Shown piece after piece: positions 2,743 to 59,114 of a stretch of 64,000 bases of DNA. Position numbers and translations under genes: made by a program. Under the pieces are notes generated by a model. It was not told the DNA's origin and ran no database searches. It saw only the letters and a list, made by a program, of their open reading frames with translations. This DNA comes from Acidovorax sp. (GTDB lineage: Bacteria; Pseudomonadota; Gammaproteobacteria; Burkholderiales; Burkholderiaceae_C): the NCBI GenBank assembly GCA_030692685.1, contig JAUXZO010000010.1, positions 1-64,000 on the forward strand, given 5' to 3'. Position 1 is the first letter of the stretch, and each line of letters opens with the position of its first letter.

Positions 2743-3409
2743 TTTGCAAAATCAACGGCTTACAGTGCAAGGACGTGCGCAATAGTCTGTGGGCGCTCAG
2801 GGAAAAGCGGGGGCAGATGGGGAAAACAGACTTGAAAGTCACGGCCTCGGGTCGTTTGGTCATTGGTTCATCGGGGGCGGTCGATCCTCCGCTTGCTGTC
2901 CGGCAGCCAGGATGTACCGCCATGTATCAATTCTTGAGCCTTCGGGCGTAGCGTCACACGATGCTCCCTTAACTAGCCCGAGGCCGCTATGCCAATGGAG
3001 TATTTCCAGGGTTTGGGGCGTGATTACCTTCCCCTGATCGAATGAGATGTACGCAACATCGACAAACTGCGCTGTTGCGCGCCGCATGGAAGTTGGAAGT
3101 TGGAAGTTGGAAGTTGGATGTTGGAAGTTCGATTGCCGCCAGTGGATGCGCAGCAACCGAAAGCGCATGTGCTTTACATCACCGGATTGGTTTGTGCCGC
3201 CCTTCAAGTCCATTGCGGGGGTCGGGTAACGCCTCGTTTGCAAATTCCATGCGACCTTGAGCCGACTGTGATGGATGTGCTGCATAAGTTGCGTGCGCCT
3301 GCGCGAATGCGTCCTACAAATTAATGCGCTGCACAAGAAGCGACAGTTCAACGCCTCAAAAATACGATAGGTCATCCGTATTACTGGCCTAGTCAGTTGA
3401 AAGGCGCAT
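2743..3409. other. Gene-poor region downstream of tmRNA
   Basis: No convincing gene. On the minus strand about 65 residues (roughly 3056 down to 2862) read like real protein (e.g. FVDVAYISFDQGKVITP and RIDTWRYILAAG), but the frame is joined to low-complexity sequence made by the heptamer repeat at 3087-3128. This may be a decayed gene fragment. The 3' end of ssrA is a classic integration site, so a relic of an integrated element is possible, but no integrase and no second copy of the tmRNA 3' end were seen. Confidence 0.4.
3087..3128 (+). repeat. Heptamer tandem repeat (TGGAAGT)6
   Basis: Six head-to-tail copies of TGGAAGT; the fifth carries an A-to-T change (TGGATGT). It is a length-variable simple repeat in non-coding sequence behind the tmRNA. 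Confidence 0.95.
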
Positions 3410-11644: not shown

Positions 11645-13270
11645 ATGAACCCATCTTCCGCTTCCTCCCTGACGCTGCACCCTGGCCGCGTCACGCTGGC
11701 CGAGCTGCGCAGCATTCATGCTGCTCCCATCCAGCTGTCGCTGGACGCATCTGCGCGCGCCCTCATGCAGGCATCCCTGGCCACCGTGCAGCGCATCGTC
11801 GACGAAGACCAAGTGGTTTATGGCATCAACACCGGCTTCGGCAAGCTCGCCAGCACCAAGATTGCCCACGAGCGCCTGGCCGAGCTGCAGCGCAATCTGG
11901 TGCTGTCGCACAGCGTGGGCACGGGCGATGCGCTGGCGGACGATGTGGTGCGCCTCATCCTTGCCACCAAGGCCATCAGCCTGGCGCGCGGGCACTCCGG
12001 CATTCGCCCGGAAATCGTGGATGCGCTGCTGGCCATGGCCAATGCCAACGTGTTGCCGGTGATTCCGGCCAAAGGTTCGGTGGGGGCTTCTGGTGACTTG
12101 GCGCCTCTGGCGCACTTGGCCTGCGTGTTGATTGGCGAAGGGCACGCCAAAGTCAATGGAGTGGTGGTCCCGGGCGCCGACGCCATGCGCTCCATCGGTT
12201 TGCAGCCGTTCGTGCTGGGCCCCAAGGAAGGGTTGGCGCTGCTCAACGGCACGCAGGTGTCCACCTCGCTCGCGCTGGCCGGGCTGTTCGGTGCCGAGAG
12301 TGTGTTCGCCGCCGCGCTGGTCGCAGGTTGCCTGTCGCTCGAAGCCATCAAGGGTTCGGTCAAGCCCTTTGACGCACGCATCCACGAGGCGCGGGGACAG
12401 GCCGGGCAGATCGCAGTGGCCGCCGCTGTGCGCGCCTTGCTCGACGGTAGCGCCATCGACCCATCCCACCCCAACTGCGGCCGCGTGCAAGACCCGTACT
12501 CCATCCGCTGCGTGCCGCAGGTGATGGGCGCGTGTCTCGATAACCTGCACCACGCCGCGCGTGTGTTGACCATCGAAGCGAATGCAGCGTCCGACAACCC
12601 GCTCGTTTTCGACAACGGCGACGTGATCTCCGGCGGCAACTTCCACGCCGAGCCCGTGGCCTTTGTGGCCGACATCATCGCGCTGGCCGTGGCCGAGATC
12701 GGCGCCATCTCCGAGCGCCGCCTGTCCTTGCTCCTCGACCCGGGCCTGTCCGGCCTGCCCGCCTTCCTCATCCGCGACAGCGGCGTGAATTCGGGTTTCA
12801 TGATCGCCCAGGTCACGGCCGCAGCCCTGGCTGCCGAGAACCAGTGCCTGGCCAACCCCAGCAGCGTGACCAGCCTGCCCACGTCGGCCAACCAGGAAGA
12901 CCACGTTTCCATGGCCACCTACGGTGCGCGCCGCCTGGGCGACATGGTGCGCAATGCGGCCGTGATGGTCGGCATCGAAGCCATGGCTGCAGCCCAAGGC
13001 ATGGAATTCGACCGCAGGCCTGTGGCCCCCACGCTCGGCACTGGCGTGTCCTCGCTGCCCCCCGAGGGGGCGCAGCCAGCCTTGGGGCGGCCCGGCGGCT
13101 GGCTGACATCGTCTCCCCTCATCGAAGACCAGTTTGCTGCCATCCGGCAGCGCGTTGACTATCTGGAGCAAGACCGCTTCCTCGCCACGGACATCGAAGC
13201 CATGCGTGAATGGGCCATGCAGACGCCATGGCCTGCGCCGCTGCTGCAGTGCCTGCCCAGCCACGCTTGA
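11645..13270 (+). CDS. hutH: Histidine ammonia-lyase with C-terminal repeat insert
   Basis: A 541-aa lyase that converts L-histidine to urocanate and ammonia, the first step of the pathway. Ala148-Ser149-Gly150 in [14 protein letters not shown] forms the MIO electrophile; YGINTGFG (Tyr59) and the [15 protein letters not shown] block are also present. It is about 30 residues longer than usual. Roughly residues 469-491 ([17 protein letters not shown]) interrupt the normal sequence near the C-terminus and are encoded by a GC-rich repeat seen between genes elsewhere. I chose ATG 11645 (AGGA eight bases before); ATG 11636 is also in frame. Confidence 0.93.
13050..13113 (+). repeat. GC-rich repeat inserted in frame in hutH
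   Basis: TCGCTGCCCCCCGAGGGGGC forms a tight hairpin and is followed by CAGCC-TTGGGGCGGCCC-GGCGGCTG, similar to the GCGGGGCGGCCCTTGCGCGG part of the intergenic repeats at 45.2, 53.1 and 63.8 kb. It keeps the hutH frame open and adds about 20 residues between GTG and PLIEDQF. Confidence 0.6.
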
Positions 13271-13298
13271 CCCCCCCATGCTGCCATTCATCCACCCA

Positions 13299-13370
13299 CC
13301 GTTCGGGCTGGGCCTGTCGAAGCCGGGGCGCTGCCTGCCAACAGCCCTTCGACAAGCTCAGGGCGAACGG
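13299..13370. repeat. CTTCGACAAGCTC-type repeat pair, copy 2
   Basis: CCGTTCGGGCTG plus GCCTGTCGAAG at the left and CCCTTCGACAAGCTCAGGG plus CGAACGG at the right form an imperfect inverted pair between hutH and hutU. It matches the copy at 11461-11549. Confidence 0.85.
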
Positions 13371-13440
13371 TTTGGACGAGCAGCCCATTCCCACACCGAT
13401 TCAAGACCACCCGTTTCCACTCGACATCCAGGAGCCCACC

Positions 13441-15177
13441 ATGAACGCCAACGACGCCATCATTGCTGCCGCCGCCTCTACCCATCCCTCTAACGACCCG
13501 CGCCACGACGCCACCCGCGTGATCCGCGCCCCGCGTGGCACAGAGCTCACCTGCAAGAGCTGGCTCACCGAGGCCGCCTACCGCATGATCCAGAACAACC
13601 TGGACACCGAAGTGGCCGAGCGTCCGCAAGACCTGGTGGTCTACGGCGGCATTGGCCGCGCCGCGCGCAACTGGGAGTGCTATGACCAGATCCTTGCATC
13701 GCTCAAGGACCTGAACGACGACGAAACCTTGCTCATCCAGTCCGGCAAACCCGTGGGCGTGTTCAAGACCCACACCAACGCACCCCGCGTGCTGCTGGCC
13801 AACTCCAACCTGGTGCCCAAGTGGGCCAACTGGGAGCACTTCAGCGAGCTGGACCAAAAGGGCCTGTTCATGTACGGCCAAATGACGGCAGGCAGCTGGA
13901 TCTACATTGGCACGCAAGGCATCGTGCAAGGCACGTATGAAACCTTTGCCGAAGCGGGGCGCAAGCACTACGGTGGTTCGCTCGAAGGCAAGTGGATATT
14001 GACGGCAGGCCTGGGCGGCATGGGTGGCGCGCAGCCACTGGCCGCGACGTTTGCGGGTGCGGTGTCGCTCAACATCGAATGCCAGCAAAGCAGCATCGAC
14101 TTTCGCCTGCGCACGCGCTACGTGGACAAGCAGGCGCGCGACATTGACCACGCGTTTGAACTCATCCAGCAACACACGGCGGCCAAAGAGGCGGTGTCGA
14201 TCGCACTGCTGGGCAACGCGGCCGAGGTGCTGCCCGAACTCGTCAAGCGCGCCAAGGCTGGTGGCTTGAAGCCCGATCTGGTCACCGACCAAACCTCCGC
14301 TCACGACCTTGTCAACGGCTACCTGCCCACTGGGTGGACGGTCGCTCAGTGGCGCGCCGCGCAGCAGGACGTGGCGCAGCACGAAGCCCTGAGGAAAGCC
14401 GCAGCCCAATCGTGCGCCGTGCATGTGCAGGCCATGCTTGACTTCCAGTCCATGGGCATCCCTACGGTGGACTACGGCAACAACATCCGCCAGGTGGCGT
14501 TTGACGAAGGCGTGAAGAACGCATTCGACTTCCCCGGTTTTGTGCCCGCCTACATTCGCCCCCTGTTCTGCGAAGGCAAGGGCCCGTTCCGCTGGGTGGC
14601 GCTCTCGGGTGACCCCGAAGACATCCGCAAGACCGACGCCAAGATCAAGGAACTGTTCCCTGAGAACAAGCATGTGCACCGCTGGCTCGACATGGCGGGC
14701 GAGCGCATTGCCTTCCAGGGCCTGCCCGCACGCATCTGCTGGCTGGGCCTGGGCGAGCGCCACATCGCCGGACTGGCCTTTAACGCAATGGTGAAAAGCG
14801 GCGAGCTGAAGGCCCCCATCGTCATTGGCCGCGACCACCTCGACACCGGCAGCGTGGCCAGCCCCAACCGCGAAACCGAAGCCATGAAGGACGGCACTGA
14901 CGCCGTCAGCGACTGGCCGCTGCTCAACGCATTGCTCAACACCGCAGGTGGCGCCACCTGGGTCAGCCTGCACCACGGCGGTGGCGTGGGCATGGGCTAC
15001 TCGCAGCACTCGGGCATGGTCATCGTGGCAGACGGCACCGACGACGCGGCCGAACGCTTGGCACGGGTGCTGGTCAACGATTGCGGCAGCGGCGTGATGC
15101 GCCATGCCGACGCGGGTTATGAGTTGGCGGTGGAGACAGCCAAGAAGCAGGGCTTGAAGCTGCCCATGGTGAAGTAA
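13441..15177 (+). CDS. hutU: Urocanate hydratase
   Basis: A 578-aa NAD-dependent urocanase that converts urocanate to imidazolonepropionate. Family hallmarks are [59 protein letters not shown] (NAD site), [14 protein letters not shown] and [18 protein letters not shown] near the C-terminus. The start behind AGGAG gives an N-terminus about 20 residues longer than usual. It lies 170 bases after hutH, with a repeat pair in the gap, and probably shares its HutC-controlled transcript. Confidence 0.95.
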
Positions 15178-15191
15178 GACGACAGGAAGAT

Positions 15192-15249
15192 GACTCGTTC
15201 AAGGCGAGTTTAAAAAAGGGAACTGCATTCCCATTGGCTGGGAATGCAG
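15192..15249 (+). terminator. Two hairpins after hutU
   Basis: First a small stem ACTCG/CGAGT followed by TTTAAAAAA, then a perfect 11-bp stem CTGCATTCCCA/TGGGAATGCAG (15223-15249, 5-base loop). Neither has a clear T-run. Together they probably end the hutH-hutU transcript; the second may instead be an operator for the IclR gene 37 bases downstream. Confidence 0.45.
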
Positions 15250-15286
15250 CATTTGCAGGCACCCGCAATCCTTTGATACTGAGCTG

Positions 15287-16033
15287 ATGCCTATCCGTGG
15301 ACCGAACTCTGTTGCTGCCGCCGACCGTGTCCTGCACGTGCTGGCGGTATTGGCACAGCACGGTCAGCCGATGCCCGCTGCCGAATTGATGGAGAGCACG
15401 GGTCTGGCGCGCAGCACGTTGTACCGGCAGCTGGCGCGGCTCAAGCAGTGGGGCTTTGTGCTTGAGACCAACGGGCACTATGCTCCGGGCCCGCTCAGCC
15501 TTCAACTGGCTTTGGGTTTTGACATGGCGTCGCACCTGGTACACCAGGCGCGCCCAGACATGCAGGCGCTGGCCCGGCAGTCGCACGAAAGCGTGGGGCT
15601 GGTGGTGGCTGTGAACGACAGTGTGGTGTGTCTTGACATGGTGGACAGCACCCACGCCCTGCGTTGCTCGTTTGAAAAAGGACGCAGCGTGCCTTTGCGC
15701 TCCGGCGCTTCTGCCAAGTGCTTGCTCGCGCATGTGGCCCACGCCACGCGCGACGCCATTCTGGATTTGCATTACGGCGCAGGCACTGCAGAACGCCATA
15801 CGGCGCTGGCCGAACTGGATGACATTGCCAAAGCTGGCTACGCCGTCAGCTCCGGCGAAGTGGATGCCGGTGTCTGGGGTGTCAGCGTGCCCGTGTTTGG
15901 AGCTCCTCGCCACGCGGCTGGAGCCATCACCTTGATGGCCCCGATCTTGCGAGCCCAAGGGCAGGAGGCTGCACTGGTCAGCATGGCTGTCGTTGCCGCT
16001 GCGCGCATCTCCCGTCAACTCACCCATCCCTGA
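15287..16033 (+). CDS. IclR-family transcriptional regulator
   Basis: A 248-aa regulator. The N-terminal winged helix (AADRVLHVLAVLAQ, AELMESTGLARSTLYRQLARL, GHYAPGPLSL) is followed by an IclR effector domain with RSGASAKCLLAH and the late SSGEVDAGVWGVSVPVF segment. It sits directly before a polar amino acid importer and a PhyH oxygenase on the same strand, so it likely controls those genes in response to a small organic ligand. This is a second regulator in the hut region besides HutC. Confidence 0.85.
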   Translation: MPIRGPNSVAAADRVLHVLAVLAQHGQPMPAAELMESTGLARSTLYRQLARLKQWGFVLETNGHYAPGPLSLQLALGFDMASHLVHQARPDMQALARQSHESVGLVVAVNDSVVCLDMVDSTHALRCSFEKGRSVPLRSGASAKCLLAHVAHATRDAILDLHYGAGTAERHTALAELDDIAKAGYAVSSGEVDAGVWGVSVPVFGAPRHAAGAITLMAPILRAQGQEAALVSMAVVAAARISRQLTHP

Positions 16034-22726: not shown

Positions 22727-23575
22727 ATGACCGATACCGACACCGACACCGATACCTCTGTGCCCCCGTTTCTTTTTCACCAAGGCACACAGCCCTTGCT
22801 GATTTCCATGCCCCATGCGGGCACCCATGTGCCGCCTGCATTGGCGGCCCGCTTTACCGAAGAAGCCCGCCACGTGCCCGACACCGACTGGCACATGGAA
22901 CGCCTGTACGGCTTTGCCAAAGACCTGGGTGCCTCCATCCTGGTGGCCACCCATTCGCGTTATGTGGTGGATCTGAACCGCCCGCCCGACGGCGCCAGCC
23001 TGTACCCCGGCCAGAGCGTCACGGGCCTGTGCCCGGTCGATACCTTTGCCGACACACCCATTTACGCCAACGGTGATGTGCCCGATGACGCAGAAGTGGC
23101 CGCACGGCGTGATGCGATGTGGGCGCCCTACCACGCGCAACTGAGCGCCGAGCTGGGCCGCATCCGCGCCCAGCATGGCGTGGCGGTGCTGTGGGACGCA
23201 CATTCGATCCGCTCGGTGCTGCCGCGCTTTTTTGAAGGCAAACTGCCCGACCTGAACCTGGGCACGGCCAACGGCGAAAGCTGCGCACCCGCGTTGGCGC
23301 AGCAGCTGCTGACCATCGCCCAGGGCGCCAGCGGCTACACGGCAGTGCTCAATGGCCGCTTCAAAGGGGGCCACATCACGCGCCAATACGGCCAGCCAGG
23401 GCAGGGCGTGCACGCTATTCAGCTCGAGATGACGCAGTGCAGCTACATGCAGGAGGCCCTTCCGTTTGATTACCTGCCCGAGGTGGCTGCACAGGTGCAA
23501 CCGCACCTGCAGCGCATGTTGCAAGCAGCACTGGGTTTTGCCGCCGCAGCAGCAGCAGCGGCAGCGGCTGCCTGA
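22727..23575 (+). CDS. hutG: N-formylglutamate deformylase
   Basis: A 282-aa N-formylglutamate amidohydrolase that releases formate and glutamate, the last step of the five-step pathway. Motifs are ISMPHAGTHVPP, DTDWHMERLY, DLNRPP and LWDAHSIRS, with GGHITRQYGQP toward the C-terminus. Both ends carry low complexity: (Asp-Thr)4 at residues 3-10 and a run of ten alanines before the last residues. ATG 22727 is chosen; an earlier in-frame ATG at 22691 overlaps the end of hutF. Confidence 0.92.
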   Translation: MTDTDTDTDTSVPPFLFHQGTQPLLISMPHAGTHVPPALAARFTEEARHVPDTDWHMERLYGFAKDLGASILVATHSRYVVDLNRPPDGASLYPGQSVTGLCPVDTFADTPIYANGDVPDDAEVAARRDAMWAPYHAQLSAELGRIRAQHGVAVLWDAHSIRSVLPRFFEGKLPDLNLGTANGESCAPALAQQLLTIAQGASGYTAVLNGRFKGGHITRQYGQPGQGVHAIQLEMTQCSYMQEALPFDYLPEVAAQVQPHLQRMLQAALGFAAAAAAAAAAA

Positions 23576-23708
23576 TTGGGCCACATTGTCATGGAGATGT
23601 AACCGGCCACCATCAGGGTGGCTTCGATGCTAGTATGGTCTTACAGTCTGTCACAGACTGCCGTGTGGGTCCGTGTTTGGCCCACTCTAGCGGAAGGAGC
23701 CGCAACGT

Positions 23709-23918
23709 ATGGATCCAACCGCCTATTACTACATGCCCCATTTCAAGCCCGGCGCTGCCGTGCGGTGGAACCAGCAAAGCGAAACGGTAAGCCACGTCGT
23801 CATCCGCCGCAATATGCTGATGGTCTATCTGGTCGGTAATGACACCCCGGTTTACCCCGAAGCCTTGCAATTGGCGCCCACCGCCTTCAAGCTGGCGCGC
23901 GTTACGCACGCGGATTGA
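23709..23918 (+). CDS. Hypothetical small protein, 69 aa
   Basis: I do not recognise this protein. AAGGAG sits at a good distance before the ATG. The sequence is protein-like (MDPTAYYYMPHFKPGAAV, VVIRRNMLMVYLVGN) with mixed polarity and no signal peptide or membrane helix. It follows hutG by about 130 bases on the same strand and is the last normal gene before the psd-flanked island. Confidence 0.55.
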   Translation: MDPTAYYYMPHFKPGAAVRWNQQSETVSHVVIRRNMLMVYLVGNDTPVYPEALQLAPTAFKLARVTHAD

Positions 23919-24019
23919 ATGCTTTTGCTGTGGAGCGCAGCTGGGCAATGCACAGGTGAATGGCTGACTTGCGCTTTGTCGATGCGCATGGGCACCCCGC
24001 GTGACCCCATCCCCTGTCC

Positions 24020-24212
24020 TGATTGCCGCGCGGCCATGGCTTTCCTCAGCCAGATCTGCCGGGCAGAGGCCCACTTCGGGTTAAAGCGCAGCGGCCCTTG
24101 TGGGAGCAGCATCACCACTGGGGAGCCCAGCAGGAAGTGGCCCCTTTCGTCTCCTTTCGTGCCCCTCCGTGTCCTTTCGTGCCCTGCTGCAGCCTGACCT
24201 TGCGGGGCACGC
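24020..24212 (-). pseudogene. Remnant of the psd 3' end
   Basis: Read on the minus strand this encodes FLLGSPVVMLLPQGPLRFNP, KWASARQIWLRKAMA, clearly matching the C-terminus of the intact Psd at 28603-29451 (FLLGSTVVMLFPQGPLRFNP, QWEPARSIRLGEAMA). A 24-base stretch (24077-24100) is identical to 28663-28686. The cleavage-site Ser is kept but the next Thr is Pro. A 10-base repeat has expanded inside it and shifts the frame. Only about the last 55 codons are present. Together with intact psd it brackets the 24.2-28.6 kb island. Confidence 0.85.
24143..24182 (+). repeat. 10-base tandem repeat in the psd remnant
   Basis: Four units: CCTTTCGTCT, CCTTTCGTGC, CCCTCCGTGT, CCTTTCGTGC. The intact psd has only one unit-equivalent here (CATTTCGTCA), so about 30 bases were added by slippage after the fragment lost function. 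Confidence 0.9.
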
Positions 24213-24432
24213 AGCCCTCTGCCGCATGCAGCGCTAGCCGCAAACGGCAACGGTTTTGCCGTTCTTGCTTGGCCCGGCACCGTGCATTGGCCTCAGCGGG
24301 GACAGTTTTGGCCGGATTCTCAGCGCTCACGTACCGCTTGATTCGTGAATAGGGTCCCTGGTGGATCGGGTAACTGCTCTTGTAAACGGCAGAACGAGCA
24401 AGTAAAAGGCGCCGCCAGCGTGTAAGGTCGTC

Positions 24433-25059
24433 ATGCTTGATTTGCATCACGCAAGTGTAAAAAATCGCGGACACTTGCCCGAACAAACGGGGTTTGCAGT
24501 GAAGAACGTGGGCATAACTGGCTTTAATGTCATTGAAGAGTGCGGAATCATCCGCTGGGGCCGTGAGTTTTTTCCCGACATCTGCGTGAACCTGGTTCGC
24601 GAAGATTCAGTTGTCCCAGTCCTGGATGGACTCGTCATCAGTGAGCGCGTGTTTTACTCCTGGCGTCCTGGCTTCAAGCCCGACTGTCCCACCCTTTTGC
24701 TCACGCACTTCCAAAACAAACACAAGCTGCGTATGGGTGTGGTTTCAATAGACATCATGGGGCCAAGGACTGTTGTGGAAGGCGGCATCGCCCAGTGGCT
24801 CAGCGGCCTTCACGGGGTAGGCGTGAGGCGCAGCAAAGTCAGCGCACCACAACTGGGCCCGCGCGAGGCAGAGGTCATCCAGTTACTTCAAAAAGGCTTC
24901 GCCAACGAAGCCATTGCTCGCGAACTGGGCCTCCAGTTAACTACGGTCAAGACGTACCTTCAGCGCATCTACGTAAAGCTTGGCGCTGTGAACAGGGCGC
25001 ATGCAGTCGCCATTTTTCTGGCGCTCGCCGAATGGCCAGAATCATCCCAGGTCAGCTGA
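24433..25059 (+). CDS. LuxR-type (GerE) transcriptional regulator, orphan
   Basis: A 208-aa protein. The C-terminal 60 residues form a LuxR/GerE helix-turn-helix (LGPREAEVIQLLQKGFANEAIARELGLQ, TTVKTYLQRIYVKLGAVNRAHAV). The N-terminal 140 residues are neither a receiver nor a recognisable autoinducer domain; I cannot assign them. No kinase or synthase is nearby. TAAGG lies six bases before the ATG; a GTG at 24499 is an alternative start. It lies inside the psd-flanked island ahead of the 688-aa lipoprotein gene and may regulate it. Confidence 0.8.
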   Translation: MLDLHHASVKNRGHLPEQTGFAVKNVGITGFNVIEECGIIRWGREFFPDICVNLVREDSVVPVLDGLVISERVFYSWRPGFKPDCPTLLLTHFQNKHKLRMGVVSIDIMGPRTVVEGGIAQWLSGLHGVGVRRSKVSAPQLGPREAEVIQLLQKGFANEAIARELGLQLTTVKTYLQRIYVKLGAVNRAHAVAIFLALAEWPESSQVS

Positions 25060-25060
25060 G

Positions 25061-25209
25061 TCAACTCACCAAAACCCTCGCGTGAATGCGCTGCTGCCAA
25101 TCGGGGTAAGGCGCAAAGCTGTCCGGCTGAATGCTGCGGCTTTTTAGGGTCACGCGCTCCACAGCCTGGTAGGTCGGCACCTTCCGTGGTGGGTACAGGT
25201 ACCGCGTGG
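25061..25209 (-). pseudogene. C-terminal fragment of an unidentified protein
   Basis: Read on the minus strand, 25209 down to the TGA at 25061-25063 gives about 48 residues with real-protein character (RYLYPPRKVPTYQAVERVTL, KSRSIQPDSFAPYPDWQQRI). A stop lies just upstream in this frame and there is no start. It begins two bases after the LuxR stop. It is probably the end of a gene truncated when the island formed; I do not recognise the parent. Confidence 0.4.
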
Positions 25210-25845
25210 CTATTCATTTTTGGTGCAATTGCGCCGCCTGAAGCCGACGCTGGCGGCTACACGGGCCACCCGGTGTCCTTGTTCCGTGCTCTGCTTGGCC
25301 GCTTTGATCGCCAAACCTTGGGGATATGGCCGATTTGTCATGTCATCACCTGCCGGGCCCAAGGTTTTAGTGTGGACGGTGCCCACTTCAGCCGCGACCA
25401 TCAAGTCACGATTTGTAACGGCTGGGATGTTTTTTTGCTTGATGCACCCGGCGCATTGGCTGCGGTGTGCGGGCTTCAACCCACCGGGAACTGATTCAAC
25501 CCGCCGTTTTCCCTCCTCCGGTACTCCTGCACTCCGGGACTGCAATCAATACAGCACAGCACAGCGCAGCGCAGCGCAGCCTTGCCGCACCACAGATGGA
25601 GCATCGCAGTACCGATGCCCACTTTCCGACACGCCATCTCGGGGCTGGGGGTCGTCTCAGTTAGCTTGCCTGAAAACGCCAAGTATCCATTTGGATGACA
25701 GCCGTTCGCCTGATTGCGAGAAATGATCTGAAGTCGGACCATCTGCTCCGGCAATCCGAGAAGCGATGCATCTCGGGGCACCAACCGCGACTACCAGGTT
25801 GGGCTGGCCGACTGCAGCATCAAATGACCATTATCAGGAGCAAAC
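25210..25845. other. Non-coding or decayed sequence in island
   Basis: About 640 bases with no supportable gene. Open frames on both strands (25186-25494 plus, 25210-25545 minus) have mixed composition and no clear start signal. It includes the 5-base tandem repeat at 25552-25581. The last 40 bases carry the ribosome binding site (CAGGAGC) of the lipoprotein gene. Confidence 0.5.
25552..25581 (+). repeat. 5-base tandem repeat (CAGCR)6
   Basis: Six adjacent units: CAGCA twice, CAGCG three times, CAGCC once. Simple slippage repeat in non-coding island DNA. Confidence 0.9.
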
Positions 25846-27912
25846 ATGGACCGTCGATTATTCGTCAATTTCAGCAGCCTTTTCGCTGCCACTACGCTCG
25901 CCGGATGCGGCGGCGGAGATAGTTCGCAATTCACCTCGGAATTTACCCCGGAAACGCTGGAGGAGTTTGACGCGAGTGGGCCGGAAATCAAGAGGGAAGA
26001 TCTTACGGACGTTCAGCCTAAGAACACCTGGCAACTTCCGTTGGTGCCACCTAATTCCGTGTATCAGGTAGAGGTCACATACATGACCACTTTGAAAGTC
26101 AAAATTTTATTTCCCAATTTAGGCTTGGAATTGGGGAGCAAAGAGTTAACCGGCGGTACCAATAACGTTATGGGATTTGCGCTGCTGAAAACAGGGCAGT
26201 CTTCCCTGCCGCAATGTATTGCATTGTTTAATAATGGAACAGTGGGCCGTTTAGTTACAGTCGACAATATGTCGAATAATGTGCGATACCGCACAGTGGA
26301 CGGCGAGGGCATCCCCTGTACAGAGTATGCAATTTATGATCCTTTTATGGGTTCTAGCAGTACTTCCGTAGCTGTTTACATCAGGTTTTACGAGATTCCA
26401 GCCAACGAGCGTCCTGTGATGGACGCGTCATTCATATGTAAGGTGATTCAAAATAATGCCAAGCACCAAAGCGGCGCGGGTCTTACTGCAATGTCTCTAA
26501 GTATGAGGCCTACTTCTAAAAGTGTGCCTGGCTACCACGCGTTAAATATCAGGTCAACAACTGGTGATAATCATGATACCGTGATGCTCCCAAGCAGTCC
26601 ATTAAATCATTATAATCACTACGTTTTAGTCCCTACTTTGATGGGTGCCAGTGACGAATTGAAACCGTATCTTGCACGTCGCATGGCGCGGCATGGTTTC
26701 AATTTGGGCAAGGCCTCTGCCGCGGTTCACGGCCCGCTTGATCACCCCACGGACGACGCGCCACAGTTTGACATGCTAATGAATGATAAAATGCGAATGG
26801 TGTGGGGGACAGGCGGAATAATTTACATTAATAACATGCAAGGTCAGATTTCCACTGCCATGCGAAACGAGCCAGCCGATTACACTGTTGGTCGCGATGT
26901 TACGGATTTTATTAAGACATTTATTGGGTCTTATAGCACCGATGCGTTGCAGCAGTCGTTGCTGGATTCGGTGAATAACTCCATGAAAAGTGACAATGCT
27001 GGGGGGGCAATCAGTGCAGCTGTGTCACTTCAGGCGGGCGCGTCATGGCAAAGTGACACAGTGAAAAGGCTCTGGCGTATACCAGTAGTTCCTGGCGGTG
27101 GTGGGAGATTTTCTGTCGCTCTTGGCCGTGCCGGCGCCGGTTTTGGTGGTGCCCAGGCAGGGCATAATTTTTATTATTTTATGAAAGATGGGCAAATTAA
27201 ATTAACGTTTGTTTTGATAATAAAGCTATTTAATTCCGCCGCCCTAAAAGTAGCCGGCTATACATTTGATACTGAAGTTAGCTTTGCCGTGACGATCGAC
27301 ACGAGAACTAATGAGGTACGGTACGACTCGGTTACTATAGAGCCTGTTATTGATTATGATAAGAAAACATTTTTAGGCTGGATTCTGAATGGTTTGATGC
27401 AGGGCGTAGCGTGGGTTGGGCGCCTCAGAGTTCCAAGTACTAACCGTATTCAGCCAGTGATTACCTCTGCTGCCGGGGTGGAGATGGCTGTTATAACGAG
27501 GGGGCTTTCTGAAACTTTAGCAGCTCTTCCGGCATTAACAGGAACCGTTCGGGCTATGCCAAGTTTCGGCGGCGACGCATTGGATCCTGTCCAGATTGTG
27601 CAACAGACGGCACAAGCTGCGAGCGGTCCATTCAGCTTAAGTCCGTGGATGCTAGGAGAATTATCTATGAAGTTTGTGATAGTCAATACAAGCATCGCGT
27701 CTGGTACTTTCCAAAAGGGTTGGTCGGCGGGGCATGCCTTCGGTTTCGAAGTCAGTTGGAAAGATCTTTTCGGCTACGGTTTGAAGTTCACCCAGCCTTT
27801 TGGTCCAGGGAATGCCGGTGCATTCGTGCGGGTCATGGCGGCTGTTGAAGCGCATGTTGCCGTTGGGAGTCCTACGTATATGGCGTCTACGCAGTATCAA
27901 ATTACTATATAG
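25846..27912 (+). CDS. Large secreted lipoprotein of unknown function, 688 aa
   Basis: I do not recognise this protein. The N-terminus MDRRLFVNFSSLFAATTLAG-C has a lipobox (LAGC, Cys21) and an Arg-Arg pair followed by LFV that resembles a Tat signal, so a Tat-exported lipoprotein is possible. Gly at +2 favours the outer membrane. No known domain is evident. The N-terminal third is beta-rich; residues about 230-330 include LARRMARHGFNLGKASAAVH and HPTDDAPQFDMLM; near 420-450 is a Gly-rich stretch (VPGGGGRFSVALGRAGAGFG); the C-terminus ends in alternating beta-like segments. Base composition is much more AT-rich than the neighbours, a sign of transfer. CAGGAGC precedes the ATG. Confidence 0.75.
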   Translation: MDRRLFVNFSSLFAATTLAGCGGGDSSQFTSEFTPETLEEFDASGPEIKREDLTDVQPKNTWQLPLVPPNSVYQVEVTYMTTLKVKILFPNLGLELGSKELTGGTNNVMGFALLKTGQSSLPQCIALFNNGTVGRLVTVDNMSNNVRYRTVDGEGIPCTEYAIYDPFMGSSSTSVAVYIRFYEIPANERPVMDASFICKVIQNNAKHQSGAGLTAMSLSMRPTSKSVPGYHALNIRSTTGDNHDTVMLPSSPLNHYNHYVLVPTLMGASDELKPYLARRMARHGFNLGKASAAVHGPLDHPTDDAPQFDMLMNDKMRMVWGTGGIIYINNMQGQISTAMRNEPADYTVGRDVTDFIKTFIGSYSTDALQQSLLDSVNNSMKSDNAGGAISAAVSLQAGASWQSDTVKRLWRIPVVPGGGGRFSVALGRAGAGFGGAQAGHNFYYFMKDGQIKLTFVLIIKLFNSAALKVAGYTFDTEVSFAVTIDTRTNEVRYDSVTIEPVIDYDKKTFLGWILNGLMQGVAWVGRLRVPSTNRIQPVITSAAGVEMAVITRGLSETLAALPALTGTVRAMPSFGGDALDPVQIVQQTAQAASGPFSLSPWMLGELSMKFVIVNTSIASGTFQKGWSAGHAFGFEVSWKDLFGYGLKFTQPFGPGNAGAFVRVMAAVEAHVAVGSPTYMASTQYQITI

Positions 27913-28602
27913 ATGGATATTTTTTATTTTCGTCTGACTGGCGCTGTCGGTTTGGCTGGACATCGGTGGGGAGGGTGGTCGGCATCCAATCATCCGAGAG
28001 CGGCGTCTACTGCTGAAAGGGCTGGATTGCTGCACGCCGGGTGCTCTTTCTAGCGATGGATTGACCGCGATGGCCACGGGTGAACCACCCACCCGTGGCT
28101 TGAAAGCGCAAGCAACTGCACGCCCTGACAAAACCGCGCCCCCCCCAACCGCGACTGCTCAGTGTGTAGGCGTGGCGCACTGTGGGCAGGGGTAGTGCGG
28201 ACAAAAATGCCCGTGCCTCCCAAAGTAAAGTGCCGGAGGGCCGGGCTTCGCACTTCACCTCACGGGGGGCGCGACCTCTAGCGGCGCCGAAGCAAATGGA
28301 CCGGGTTCTGCCTGATCCAGGCGAATTACGCCGCGACCCGGTACGGCGTACAGGTGCTACGCCGACCAGTGTGATGGCTTGTTTCCCTACGTCTCTAACG
28401 GCAGGCTAGTTCGCATGGCTGTGGCCGCCGCAAGCGGGCGTCGCAGCGTTGGAGCTTGTGCTGAGCAAGCAAGGCGCGCGAGGCGCCGGGCAATGTAGTT
28501 GTTGAGCGCTGCCTTGCTGTCTGCCGCCCGCAGATGCAACTCTTATGATCGGTTTGAGGCTACCCCGCAGCCGGGGGAGCGCTATTACCGTTGGTCCGAC
28601 GG
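27913..28602. other. Non-coding right part of the island
   Basis: About 690 bases between the lipoprotein gene and the 3' end of psd. Base composition returns from AT-rich to GC-rich at about 27.95 kb. A T-rich run follows the lipoprotein stop but without a clear hairpin. No integrase, transposase or inverted repeat end could be identified. Confidence 0.5.
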
Positions 28603-29451
28603 TTAATCTCGCAACAAAGCCATCGCCTCGCCCAGACGAATCGACCGGGCCGGCTCCCACTGCGGGTTAAAGCGCAGCGGCCCTTGCGGGAATAGCATCA
28701 CCACGGTAGAGCCCAGCAAAAAACGCCCCATTTCGTCACCCTGTTGCAGGCTGACCTGGCCGGGCGCGTAGTCCCATTGCCGCTGCCGGCCGGTGCGCGG
28801 CGGGTTTACCAGGCCGTGCCACACCGTGGCCATGCTGCCCACGATGGTGGCACCCACCAGCACGAGTACAAACGGGCCATGCGCGCTGTCAAACGCACAC
28901 ACCACGCGCTCGTTGCGGGCAAACAGCCCAGGCACGCCGCGGGCGGTGAGCGGGTTGACCGAAAACAGGTCGCCCGGCACGTGCACCATGCGCGTCAGCG
29001 TGCCTGCGCAGGGCATGTGGATGCGGTGATAGTCGCGTGGGCTCAGGTACAGCGTGGCAAAGTGCCCGTTCTCAAACTGCGCGGCCAGCGCTGCATCGCC
29101 ACCCACCAGTGCGGTGGTGGAATAGGTATGGCCCTTTGCCTGGAAGACCTGGTCCTTGTCGATAGGGCCGAACTGGCTGATGGCGCCGTCGACCGGGCAG
29201 ATCAGGTCCGCCGCTTCCAGCGGGCGTGCGCCGGGCTTCAAGGCGCGGGTGAAGAAATCGTTGAATGAGGTGTACGCGCCAATGTCGGGCTGTGCCGCCT
29301 CGTCCATATTGACGTTGTAGCGCGCCACAAAGCGGCGGATAGCGGCGGTGGTCAGGCCGCCCAGCCGGGCCGATGCCAGCTTGCCAGCTAGCACGGTCAT
29401 CGCCTTCTTGGGCATCAGGTATTGCGGCAGAACTGCCAGACGATCAGACAA
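28603..29451 (-). CDS. psd: Phosphatidylserine decarboxylase proenzyme
   Basis: A 282-aa enzyme that makes phosphatidylethanolamine at the inner membrane. The self-cleavage site is LGST (Ser248 becomes the pyruvoyl group); DYHRIHMP and VNPLTARGVPGLFARNERVV hold catalytic and conserved residues. A TTG start at 29451 (MSDRLAVLPQYL) preceded by GAGAGG fits the family N-terminus; the frame stays open further upstream but without family-like sequence. A second, broken copy of its 3' end lies 4.6 kb away at 24020-24212 on the same strand. Confidence 0.92.
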   Translation of the reverse strand: MSDRLAVLPQYLMPKKAMTVLAGKLASARLGGLTTAAIRRFVARYNVNMDEAAQPDIGAYTSFNDFFTRALKPGARPLEAADLICPVDGAISQFGPIDKDQVFQAKGHTYSTTALVGGDAALAAQFENGHFATLYLSPRDYHRIHMPCAGTLTRMVHVPGDLFSVNPLTARGVPGLFARNERVVCAFDSAHGPFVLVLVGATIVGSMATVWHGLVNPPRTGRQRQWDYAPGQVSLQQGDEMGRFLLGSTVVMLFPQGPLRFNPQWEPARSIRLGEAMALLRD

Positions 29452-29533
29452 GGGCAACCTCTCGGGGACGAAAGCGGTGGATTCTATCGGTGGGCAGCGC
29501 AGGCGCCGTGCGGGAGCGCGCCGCAGTGCGCTG

Positions 29534-30250
29534 TCAGACGCCCAGGTGCTGTTCGAGCAGGCCGGGCTCGTCCTGCAGCGCCTGCGAGCTGCCTTCAAAG
29601 ACGACCTGGCCCTTGACCAGGATGACGTTGCGGTCGGTGATCTGGGTGACGTGTTTCCAGTTCTTGTCCACGATCACGCTGCTGATGCCGCTCTCCTTGA
29701 TCAGGCTGCAGATGCGCCAGATTTCGCGCGCGATCAGCGGCGCCAGGCCTTCGGTGGCTTCGTCCAGAATGAGCACGTCGGGGTTGGTCATCAGCGCCCG
29801 GCCGATGGTCAGCATCTGCTGCTCGCCACCGCTCAGTTGCTGGCCGCCATGGCCCAGCCGTTCCTTGAGGCGCGGAAAGGTCTCCAGCACGCGGTCATAC
29901 GTCCAGTCGCGCTGGCCCCGTGTGCCAGCACGTGCCGCCATCTGCAGGTTTTCGACCACGCTGAGGTTGCCGAAGATGCCACGGCCTTCGGGCACATACG
30001 CAATGCCAAGCCGAGCCACCTCATAGGGCGGTTTGCCAGTCATGTCACGGCCCGACATGCTGATGCTGCCGGAGCGTGGCTTGACCAGCCCCATCAGTGA
30101 TTTGAGCAAGGTGCTTTTGCCCATGCCGTTGCGGCCCATCAGGCCGATGGTTTCACCCTGACCTACGGTGAAGTCCACCCCGTGCAGGATGTGGCTGGCG
30201 CCGTAGTAGGTGTGGAGGCCCCGGGCATCGATCCAAGGTGTGTCGTTCAT
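29534..30250 (-). CDS. livF: Branched-chain amino acid-type ABC transporter ATPase LivF
   Basis: A 238-aa ATPase: Walker A GRNGMGKST, Q-loop/YVPEGRGIF, signature LSGGEQQM, Walker B VLILDEATEGLAP. It is the last gene of a minus-strand livK-(lysE)-livHMGF set; the stop of livG is one base upstream of its start. In the late part VIVDKN replaces the usual VEQN. The ligand is a hydrophobic amino acid or another small organic acid; the class does not fix it. Confidence 0.9.
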   Translation of the reverse strand: MNDTPWIDARGLHTYYGASHILHGVDFTVGQGETIGLMGRNGMGKSTLLKSLMGLVKPRSGSISMSGRDMTGKPPYEVARLGIAYVPEGRGIFGNLSVVENLQMAARAGTRGQRDWTYDRVLETFPRLKERLGHGGQQLSGGEQQMLTIGRALMTNPDVLILDEATEGLAPLIAREIWRICSLIKESGISSVIVDKNWKHVTQITDRNVILVKGQVVFEGSSQALQDEPGLLEQHLGV

Positions 30251-33812: not shown

Positions 33813-35000
33813 TCAGCCCATGCGGCAACCGGCGCCGCTGTCGGCCAGGGCCTTGGCGGCCACGCCGATAACCTTGTTTTCCTTGTTTGCAACCTGCCGC
33901 AGGTAAATGTCCTGAACCGGGTTGTGTGCCTTGCTCATCGTCCATTTGCCGCGGGGGCTGTCGATGACGGCACTTTCCAGCGCCTTGTAAAGCGCGGGCT
34001 TGGACGACATGTCGCCTTTGACCGCGTTGGCGCCTTGCACCAGCAGCAAGCCCGTGTCGTAGCCTTGCACCGCGTACACGTCGGGCTGGCTGCGGAACGC
34101 CTTGGCGTATTCGAGGCGGAATTGCTTGTTGCGCGGCGTGTCCAGCGAATCGCTGTAGTGCATCGTGGTAATGATGCCGTCTGCGGCAGGGCCAGCGGCG
34201 TCCAGCACGCCTTCAGTGAGAAAGCCCGAGCCGTACAGCGGAATTTTGTCCTTGAGGCCAGCTGCTGCGTAGTCGCGGATGAATTTTGCGGCACCGCCAC
34301 CAGCAAAGAAGCAGGCTACAGCGTCGGGCTTGAGCGCCGCGATCTCGGTGAGCAGCGCCTGGAACTCGACGTTGGGGAAGGGCAGCCCCAGCTCTTTGAC
34401 GATGGTGCCACCTGCGGCGGTGTAGCTTTGCTTGAAACCTTCAAAGGCTTCGTCGCCAGCGGCGTACTTCCAGGTGATCCACACGGCTTTTTTGTGGCCT
34501 CTGTCGACCATCGCCTTGCCCAGCGCCAGGGTGGGTTGGGAGTTGCTGAACGATGTGCGGAACACATTGGGCGCGCAGAGTGCGCGGGTTGCCGCATGTA
34601 CGCCCGCGTTGGGAATCAGGCTGAGCACCCCGGTATCGCGCGCCACCTTCTGGATCCCCATCTGAACACCGGAGTGCACTGTGCCAATCAGCACATCGAC
34701 TTTATCGCGCTGGACCAGCTTGCTAGCGTTCTCGACGCCTTTGCTGGGCTCCGATTCGTCGTCCACCTTGAACCACTCGATCTCGCGTCCACCCAACTTG
34801 CCACCCTGCTGGTCAATTGCCAGTCGCACCCCGTTTTCAATCGCAACGCCCAACTGAGCAAAGGTGCCGGTGTAAGGCAGCATGAAACCCACGCGCACTT
34901 TGCCGCTTTGCGCACGCACGATGGAGGGCAACAACAGGCCCGTGGAAGCGGCGCCTACGAGGGCGGCACTGCGGCTGATGACGAGGCGGCGTGTGGTCAT
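33813..35000 (-). CDS. livK: ABC transporter substrate-binding protein, LivK type
   Basis: A 395-aa type I periplasmic binding protein. The signal peptide ends near residue 31 (SIVRAQ) and has an Arg-Arg start (MTTRRLVISR). Family segments are VRVGFMLPYTGTFAQLG, DAVACFFAGGGAAKFI and YDTGLLLVQG. It is the first gene of the minus-strand import cassette; the gap to lysE is about 160 bases. Confidence 0.9.
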   Translation of the reverse strand: MTTRRLVISRSAALVGAASTGLLLPSIVRAQSGKVRVGFMLPYTGTFAQLGVAIENGVRLAIDQQGGKLGGREIEWFKVDDESEPSKGVENASKLVQRDKVDVLIGTVHSGVQMGIQKVARDTGVLSLIPNAGVHAATRALCAPNVFRTSFSNSQPTLALGKAMVDRGHKKAVWITWKYAAGDEAFEGFKQSYTAAGGTIVKELGLPFPNVEFQALLTEIAALKPDAVACFFAGGGAAKFIRDYAAAGLKDKIPLYGSGFLTEGVLDAAGPAADGIITTMHYSDSLDTPRNKQFRLEYAKAFRSQPDVYAVQGYDTGLLLVQGANAVKGDMSSKPALYKALESAVIDSPRGKWTMSKAHNPVQDIYLRQVANKENKVIGVAAKALADSGAGCRMG

Positions 35001-35497
35001 GGGAAGGGACTCCTTTGTTTAGGCTTAAAGTAATTTACTCCAAGCCTTCGGTGGTGAAAACCTATGGCTTACCCGTACCGATGGCATGGGTGGCACGTGA
35101 GACCGCATTCCTGAGTCGGTCATATTTCGATGAATACGCCCAGCAAACCAAGTCTGTGGTTTGTCGGGCTTGTCGACCTTGTTGGGCTTGTAGGAACTGA
35201 ATGCCATTAAACATGAATTAAAATGCATATATTTTAGTTTGATGCAGTATAGATCATGAATTTGGCGTGATGGAGGACTCTTCGGTGCAGACGCATAGGT
35301 AGTTTCCAGAGTCAGCAGTTCAGAGCGATCAATACATCGATCGCCACCCTGTTGATAGTCTGTCAGAGGGCGGTATCAAGATCCCCATGCAAAATGGTCG
35401 TTCCTGGGGTAACGCGTTATCAGCCCCCTGTCTGCCCTGAGTTTTGGATTTCGTCATGTTTTAGGGTGTACACGTCGCTGCACACCTCGAATCTCCC
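35001..35497. other. Divergent promoter region
   Basis: About 500 bases between livK (minus) and the HPP-CBS gene (plus). An AT-rich block at 35205-35270 probably contains promoters. Short dyads such as CATCGATCG near 35335 are present. No gene is supported here. Confidence 0.5.
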
Positions 35498-36733
35498 ATG
35501 CCCTTTTCATCGCCGCCCTCGTCATCGTCGTCCCCTTCAGCGTCGCTTTACGGGAGGCTGGTGCGGTGGTTGCGGCATTTCTGGCCCGCTCCACTGGGCA
35601 TCGATGGTAGAGAGCGGCTTCGCTTCATCGTGGGCGCCGTTGTAGGGGTGCTGTTGACCGCCTTGCTCAGCCGATGGTGGGCGGGTGACAGTGGAACTGG
35701 CCCGTGGATGGTGGCGTCGCTTGGAGCCAGCGCGGTGCTTGTTTTTGGTATGCCTTCCAGTCCGTTGGCACAACCCTGGCCCGTGCTGGGTGGCAGTACC
35801 CTGTCGGCGCTGGTCGGTGCCGGCTGCGCGGCCCTAGTGCCAGATGTGGCATTGGCGGGCGCCCTGGCGGTGGGACTGGCCATCGCGCTCATGGTGCCAT
35901 TGCGCTGTCTGCATCCGCCGGGCGGGGCGATGGCGCTCTACGTGGTGCTGGGCGCTGGCGATGGGTGGCGTCTGGCGGCATTCCCTATTCTGTTCAATGT
36001 GCTGATTCTGCTTGTGACTGCCGTGGTCTACAACACCCTCACTGGCCGCCGGTATCCGCATCCGCAGCGTGCTCAGGTCACTGGCGAAATCGCCGCGGGA
36101 GCGTTCACGTCCTCGGATGTGGATGCCGCGCTTTCGCATTACAACCAGGTTCTGGATGTGAGCCGGGCCGACCTGGAGGGTCTTTTGCATCTGGCGGGGC
36201 GCGCTGCGTTCCAGCGGACGTTGGGGGATTTGCGCTGCGCTGACATCATGTCGAAACCGCCCTTTGCCGTGGAGGCGGGAGTCTCTCTCAAAGACGCGTG
36301 GACGTTGATGCGTGCCGAACAGATCAAGGCGCTGCCCGTGGTCGATGCGCAGCGCCTTGTCCTCGGCATTGTTACTGTTGCTGACTTCATGCGCTTGGCT
36401 AACCTTGACCTGCACGAAGGGCTGGGACAGCGATTGCGCACGCTGGTCATGGGCCGCAGCGGTCAACCCGCAACGGTCGGCGAGATCATGTCGCACCCCG
36501 TGCAAACAGCCCATGTGGCGCAGCACGCCATGGACTTGGTCCCCTTGTTTTCGCATGGGGGGCACCACCATATTCCGATTGTTGATCCTGAGGCGCGGTT
36601 GGTCGGGGTGATTACGCAGACCGACTTGGTACGCACCCTGGCAATCACAGTCCAGGGTCGTGATGATGATGTTTCGCCTGGGGGTTCCAAGCGGCAAATC
36701 GCACCTGTGGTAGCTCCAAAAGCCGGGCCATAG
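35498..36733 (+). CDS. HPP family membrane protein with CBS domains
   Basis: A 411-aa protein. After a Ser/Pro-rich start, four hydrophobic segments (about 45-185) carry the HPP-family marks: LGASAVLVFGMPSSPLAQPWPVLGG and LRCLHPPGGAMAL. The C-terminal half holds two CBS motifs (IMSKPPFAVEAGVSLKDAW with VVDAQRLVLGIVTVADF, and IMSHPVQTAHV with IVDPEARLVGVITQTDL). Some HPP proteins are nitrite transporters; the CBS pair suggests control by adenosine nucleotides. It is not in an obvious operon. Confidence 0.85.
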   Translation: MPFSSPPSSSSSPSASLYGRLVRWLRHFWPAPLGIDGRERLRFIVGAVVGVLLTALLSRWWAGDSGTGPWMVASLGASAVLVFGMPSSPLAQPWPVLGGSTLSALVGAGCAALVPDVALAGALAVGLAIALMVPLRCLHPPGGAMALYVVLGAGDGWRLAAFPILFNVLILLVTAVVYNTLTGRRYPHPQRAQVTGEIAAGAFTSSDVDAALSHYNQVLDVSRADLEGLLHLAGRAAFQRTLGDLRCADIMSKPPFAVEAGVSLKDAWTLMRAEQIKALPVVDAQRLVLGIVTVADFMRLANLDLHEGLGQRLRTLVMGRSGQPATVGEIMSHPVQTAHVAQHAMDLVPLFSHGGHHHIPIVDPEARLVGVITQTDLVRTLAITVQGRDDDVSPGGSKRQIAPVVAPKAGP

Positions 36734-59068: not shown

Positions 59069-59114
59069 GATAGGTCGATAGGTCGATAGGTCGATTAGGT
59101 GGATAGGTTGATTG
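59069..59114 (+). repeat. 8-base tandem repeat (GATAGGTC)
   Basis: Three perfect GATAGGTC units (59069-59092) followed by diverged units (GATTAGGTG, GATAGGTT, GATTG). A short slippage repeat upstream of the SDR gene. Confidence 0.9.

Follow-up and report, generated by a model that had tools for sequence, protein, structure and literature searches.

The window analysed here is a stretch of 64,000 nt on contig C108 of a draft genome (G000; 229 contigs, 89.3% complete, 7.1% contamination), and it carries an accessory block between the hut and liv genes, next to the gene for phosphatidylserine decarboxylase (psd). On the left lies a gene for a 69-aa protein (23709-23918, plus strand), which precedes psd in relatives and is without a match in Pfam and NCBIfam. 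After a spacer (23919-24019) follow a relic of the 3' end of psd that corresponds to its ~55 last codons (24033-24225, minus strand) and one copy of a 48-nt repeat that is dispersed in the genus and was recognised by alignments to relatives (24312-24360, plus strand). The block further comprises a gene for an orphan LuxR-type regulator with a GerE HTH domain (24433-25059, plus strand; PF00196, E 7.1e-14), the N-terminal remnant of an IS3-family OrfA (25230-25394, minus strand) and an orphan gene for a lipoprotein of 688 aa (25685-27912, plus strand; the ORF spans 25846-27912, and ~160 nt upstream, from where the alignment with its paralog starts, are common to both). Intact psd (28603-29451, minus strand; PF02666, 3.7e-62; C-terminus AMALLRD) closes the block and is followed by a gene for a branched-chain amino-acid ABC ATPase which we take to be livF (29534-30250, minus strand).

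The LuxR-type regulator has relatives in 0 of 46 same-genus genomes at E<=1e-15, its paralog within the own genome shares 31%, and plasmids and genome_contigs yielded just HTH-level or weak relatives. The IS3 remnant is 72-75% identical at the DNA level to copies in G009 and G006, and in L062 an OrfA frame adjoins an OrfB with an rve domain. Inspected by eye, the lipoprotein carries what we take to be twin arginines and a lipobox, and with a GC content of 48% its gene differs from psd (65%). Its sole relative among the 399 family genomes searched is encoded by the same genome (contig C154, 41% amino acid identity over its length), while the 398 other genomes hold none. Neither the PDB nor plasmids or phages provided a sequence relative, and two-peptide pattern scans of genome_contigs and viral_contigs found nothing. 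Pfam, NCBIfam, PHROGs and PADLOC were uninformative about its function, a few weak matches below the cut-offs being set aside, and a structure prediction based on a two-row alignment reached a pLDDT of 30.8 and a pTM of 0.25. The segment 27913-28604 has no DNA match among plasmids, and Rfam gave 0 matches at E<=1 across 23500-29600. In the first-pass annotation, the block had been read as an accessory island with a LuxR regulator, a gene fragment and an AT-rich lipoprotein gene, yet with no visible integrase. All three are present, the 'gene fragment' being the OrfA remnant, and a Pfam scan of 10 frames of the island found no integrase.

Among the matches listed, at least five copies of the 48-nt repeat occur in each of the relatives G022 and G024, at least one in each of G018, G029 and G039, and one other copy was observed in the own genome. 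This concentration in G022 and G024 among the matches listed would fit an origin of the left part of the island from their type. Elsewhere in the window, short tandem arrays are found at 59069-59113 and 3087-3129 (periods 8/17 and 7), and the GC content dips locally to 48% at 35000-35499 in a neighbourhood of ~62%.

Affinities of the locus in related genomes

To compare the locus with its counterparts, 46 same-genus relatives were searched, 44 of which gave a match, and the psd loci of 40 were fetched (20 + 20; G004, G007, G025, G033, G040 and G042 lie outside this set). In 39 of the 40 loci psd adjoins the 69-aa gene or hutG without any insert, the greatest distance being 772 nt; the exception is G013, where neither neighbour was found near psd. 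From match coordinates alone, psd of G004 also lies ~100 nt from the 69-aa gene. Apart from a stray 38-nt match in G010, none of the 40 loci has a second site similar to the psd 3' end, whereas the window, which served as positive control, delivered both psd ends. Such an empty site is expected of an integrase-type genomic island at the 3' end of a gene. It was also the comparison proposed by the first-pass annotation, according to which the island model would fail if close relatives lacking the lipoprotein gene had the psd fragment, or if the full interval, with normal composition, were common to all relatives; with 39 of 40 loci free of the insert, the island survives.

The genes on both sides of the island point to a single relative. 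Among 20 loci, G036 is closest for hutI, hutF, hutG, the 69-aa gene, livG, livM and livH (90-94%), and the window groups with G036 in the hutG tree and in the livFG tree (both 100/100), although the latter comprises 25 rows without G022 and G024, whose matches were too short for the cut-off. In contrast, intact psd is 79.3% identical to G036 and 89.4% and 87.7% identical to G022 and G024, while all others of the 40 stay at or below 82.9%. The psd tree unites the window with G022 and G024 (100/99), and an AU test rejects a grouping of the window with G036 (p 4.8e-8). Since psd of G036 groups with that of G027 (98/92), G036 does not appear to be the obvious odd one in this comparison. Because psd is G022/G024-like while its hut and liv flanks are G036-like, and because the foreign affinity continues into livF, we regard psd, judged by sequence affinity, as the newcomer, a gene of foreign type in a G036-type backbone. 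A scan against five genomes in 1-kb bins (42 bins with >300 G036 positions, over a stretch of up to 50 kb) is in line with this: two psd bins are closer to G022 than to G036, by 11 and 5 points, and 4 of the 42 bins are more than 2 points closer to another genome. The other two, 13001-14000 and 15001-16000, favour G011 over G036 by ~3 points, possibly as a trace of older recombination.

The G022/G024-type affinity extends through the spacer between psd and livF into livF itself, which is a mosaic of a donor-like 3' part and a native 5' part. Between 29534 and 29820, livF is 92.3% identical to G022 and G024 and 87.5% to G036, whereas from 29830 to 30250 the identity is 94.3% to G036 and 76.5% to G022. 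We mapped the switch on 216 sites at which G022 and G024 agree, G036 differs and the window matches one of both. It falls between 29822 and 29828, with a ratio of donor to native sites of 134:25 on the left and 7:50 on the right, and 0 of 10000 permutations were as strong. The left edge is less sharp. The 69-aa gene is 91.7% identical to G036 across its first 180 nt; in blocks of 40 positions, 35-38 are identical up to 23859, then 31 and then 19. The spacer 23919-24019 has no match in 20 relatives, and G022 and G024 show no visible alignment even with each other in the spacer after their 69-aa genes. We infer a left crossover at ~23.88 kb, in the last part of the 69-aa gene or the spacer behind it, and a putative imported, xenologous tract of ~5.9 kb (23880-29825) whose left edge is bracketed by ~23860-24225.

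The psd relic

The relic was delimited by alignment of the repeat and by a tandem-repeat scan. Its main part (24033-24154) matches 28619-28740 of the window over 122 nt with 77% identity, on the same strand and at a spacing of 4586 nt. A second aligned part (24182-24225; 45 nt, 80% identity) is separated from it by the expansion of a 10-bp tandem repeat (24143-24185). The main alignment has a local score of 66. By comparison, 300 shuffles gave a mean of 12.1 with an sd of 1.5 and never exceeded 19, and the highest score among 57 other 1-kb slices of the plus strand was 16. The broken 5' side of the relic faces the island, one minus-strand frame is open across the matched part, and what we take to be the LGST motif of psd reads LGSP there. 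A decayed copy of the last ~55 codons, on the same strand as the intact gene, had been claimed beforehand, and this is confirmed.

The 24 bases at 24077-24100 that had been noted as identical to 28663-28686 are indeed the longest identical stretch of the repeat. As a mark of integration they fail, since the same 24 bases occur in G024; they therefore mark common psd ancestry, and neither an attachment core nor a duplication of recent date is indicated. The identical direct-repeat core that an integrase island should have is thus not seen in the repeat, which extends over 122 nt at 77% with identical runs of at most 24 nt, a state that erosion over time might also produce.

The relic is most similar to G024 (104 of 125 columns), followed by G022 (99/125) and intact psd of the window (95/125). 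The group of G022, G024 and window psd is set apart from the majority of the 38 others at 14 diagnostic columns, and the relic carries the base of the group in 10; four of these ten bases are present in only 0 to 4 of the 38 others, and G036 has 3 of the ten. The minority base of G036 was found in 7 of 20 columns of the relic, compared to 63/102 for native hutG and 24/116 for foreign psd as controls. In the tree, the relic joins window psd and G024 (96/82), and a direct count of columns in favour of G024 and G036 gave 17:7 (p 0.064). Forcing the relic to G036 is worse by 13.4 lnL units, but the AU test on these 125 columns does not reject it (p 0.166). Taken together, the relic is probably of the donor type (G022/G024) and not the old end of the resident psd; if so, the arrangement of relic, island and psd would predate the transfer.

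The second lipoprotein copy and lpd

The only other copy of the lipoprotein gene that we found lies on contig C154 (~96515-99544; L064:3516-6545) and is followed by a 3' fragment of lpd of ~730 nt. C154 has stretches that are 90% and 94% identical to G036. A gene ~5 kb past the fragment, which we take to be aspartokinase-like, adjoins lpd in G024 and lies 1.5 kb from it in G011, and so the fragment lies in the lpd neighbourhood; the ~3.5 kb adjoining it have no match in five relatives. Intact lpd is located on C58 (L110:1719-3596), beside genes that we read as aceF and aceE, with an IS1595-type transposase directly downstream. The aceE part of C58 is 93% identical to G036 and equally similar to G009, G037 and G038. 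Intact lpd, in turn, is unusually divergent, on average ~81% identical to G036 (73-90% per 150-nt slice), although G036 and G024 share 92% in lpd. A tree built on the part that both copies have in common pairs the fragment with intact lpd (100/100), both on long branches, and a grouping of the fragment with G036 is rejected (p 0.012). The tree of whole lpd places the gene with G027 (99/98). Since its grouping with G036 is not rejected (p 0.355), however, a foreign origin of intact lpd is only suggestive. Because C58 and C154 are separate contigs, the parallel between psd and lpd is one that we infer. The orientation of the lipoprotein gene relative to the host gene is opposite at the two loci.

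A 13-mer at the junction of island and psd (28609-28621, plus strand) recurs on C154, with the lipoprotein paralog on one side of it and the lpd fragment on the other. It was first spotted by eye, and the statistics were obtained afterwards: the genome of 5.26 Mb contains exactly 2 copies (reversed control 0), and it is the longest word common to both loci outside the lipoprotein (opposite-sense control, maximum 12). We did not accept it as proof of an element end and treat it as a lead only, given a control within one base and its discovery by eye. Hairpins are predicted just before the 13-mer at both loci (z -2.0 and -5.1), but ordinary terminators would also give them. One end of C154 has a stretch that is 96% like the end of C57. 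One-ended transposition, of a kind we presume to be IS91-like, was rejected as source of the lpd fragment, as the frame on C57 has no Pfam match; for such an element, the lipoprotein gene is also apparently on the wrong side of it.

One might speculate that the orphan lipoprotein gene forms the centre of an integrase-free mobile unit which repeatedly enters the 3' ends of core genes such as psd and lpd. Each entry would leave a 3' fragment of the gene at one border and, at the other, an intact copy of atypical and apparently foreign character. The unit would spread via captured core-gene sequence and have the 13-mer as its lipoprotein-side end. We consider this idea unlikely. The lpd parallel, involving the sole other copy found of the lipoprotein family, is the part of our observations that possibly goes beyond the ordinary.

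Origin of the arrangement

The explanation we favour, at a probability of roughly 70%, is that homologous recombination at core genes brought in ~5.9 kb, and that the donor of this DNA possessed the partial psd duplication beforehand. This donor, related to G022 and G024, would have had the order 69-aa gene, psd relic, LuxR-type regulator, IS3 remnant, lipoprotein gene, intact psd and livF; no genome with this arrangement was found among those searched. Its DNA would have entered an ancestor of the present strain, where homologous recombination by the host replaced the resident psd locus, presumably in a single event, with the right crossover at the switch seen in livF and the left one close to where the 69-aa gene ends, or within the adjoining spacer. 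The new intact psd presumably supplies the psd function, and relic and island would have been carried along. The partial duplication itself would have been made in the donor lineage before the transfer. Single-crossover integration, an illegitimate join on one side or an integrase that has since been lost may each have produced it. An intact gene, an island and a 3' stub are a geometry that is equally expected from integrase-free recombination, for example from single-crossover integration of a circle carrying a gene end.

Alternatively, one step within this lineage could have produced the locus: donor DNA made up of the island, psd and the end of livF would have undergone homologous recombination in livF, its other end being joined illegitimately to an internal site of the resident psd, so that the relic is what was left un-replaced of the native gene. 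A single event would then cover the relic, the island, the foreign psd and the fact that only one crossover is sharp, the relic sits at its native place after the 69-aa gene, and the AU test (p 0.166) is compatible with it. However, the diagnostic columns (10/14 of G022/G024 type), the minority bases of G036 (7/20) and the lower likelihood with G036 speak against a native relic, and we regard this course of events as improbable.

Somewhat less credible still is that a site-specific element, integrase- or prophage-like, inserted at the 3' end of psd, made the gene complete again and was subsequently deprived of its integrase, although this might be true of the donor lineage. A partial 3' duplication flanks an AT-richer block, and the second lipoprotein copy adjoins a 3' fragment of lpd, both as such an element would have it. 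Against it stand the lack of an integrase in the island frames scanned, the shortness of the identical stretch, the opposite orientation of the lipoprotein gene at psd and lpd, and the foreign affinity within livF, which integration at psd leaves unexplained. The first-pass annotation had proposed precisely that the element restored psd and displaced its old end. With a foreign intact psd, an affinity that reaches livF and a relic that leans to the donor type, this part is not supported, while the accessory block, the partial psd duplication and the empty sites hold.

That the locus is a chimera of two species from a mixed sample, produced by assembly or binning, appears very improbable to us. 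The genome is a draft in many contigs with some contamination, as stated above, but the affinity runs from native to foreign and back to native with synteny kept on both sides, and the island is found in neither G036 nor G022. In addition, the longest exact run between G036 and G022 across 28619-30190 is at most 34 nt, whereas C57 and C58 share an exact end of 141 nt, suggesting an assembly word of that length. A donor-type relic would likewise result from two successive imports, in which a G022/G024-type psd came first and the island, together with another psd of this type, came later; this course of events is less simple. Insertion of an IS or transposon was rejected, as neither a bounding transposase nor terminal inverted repeats were found, only the internal IS3 OrfA remnant; the inverted repeats in the region, such as one of 31 nt at 71% and another of 16 nt at 94%, are either short or weak.

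If the import from a donor of the G022/G024 type is accepted, a partial gene duplication next to an island need not imply an integrase, and the gene that one would take for the native copy would here be the import. With one crossover mapped to a few bases, the locus offers a clean example of core-gene-mediated transfer of an island between species. Integrase islands in protein genes have a partial gene copy at their border. A limited literature search found no report of psd as integration site. Like the islands associated with dusA (PMC4482086), the present one is located at a core gene; those islands lie at the 5' end of dusA, and here no integrase was found while the intact gene and the DNA beyond it are foreign. 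Homology-facilitated illegitimate recombination, as outlined in PMC3240628, combines one homologous with one illegitimate end and would give the present geometry, but it requires a native relic, which our base comparison disfavours. Closest are the hotspots without mobile elements described in PMC5635113, for whose changes double recombination in the core genes on either side has been proposed. In contrast to these hotspots, the flanking psd is wholly replaced here, a second partial psd lies at the far border, and there is no sign of a hotspot, given that 39 of 40 relatives are insert-free. They share with the psd locus the presence of accessory genes while no mobile element is recognisable, an incongruent flanking core gene and a crossover within a core gene. 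Double recombination at flanking core genes would be the best fit among the systems compared; as a way of transferring islands the process is of a known kind, and what is unusual is one feature that recurs.
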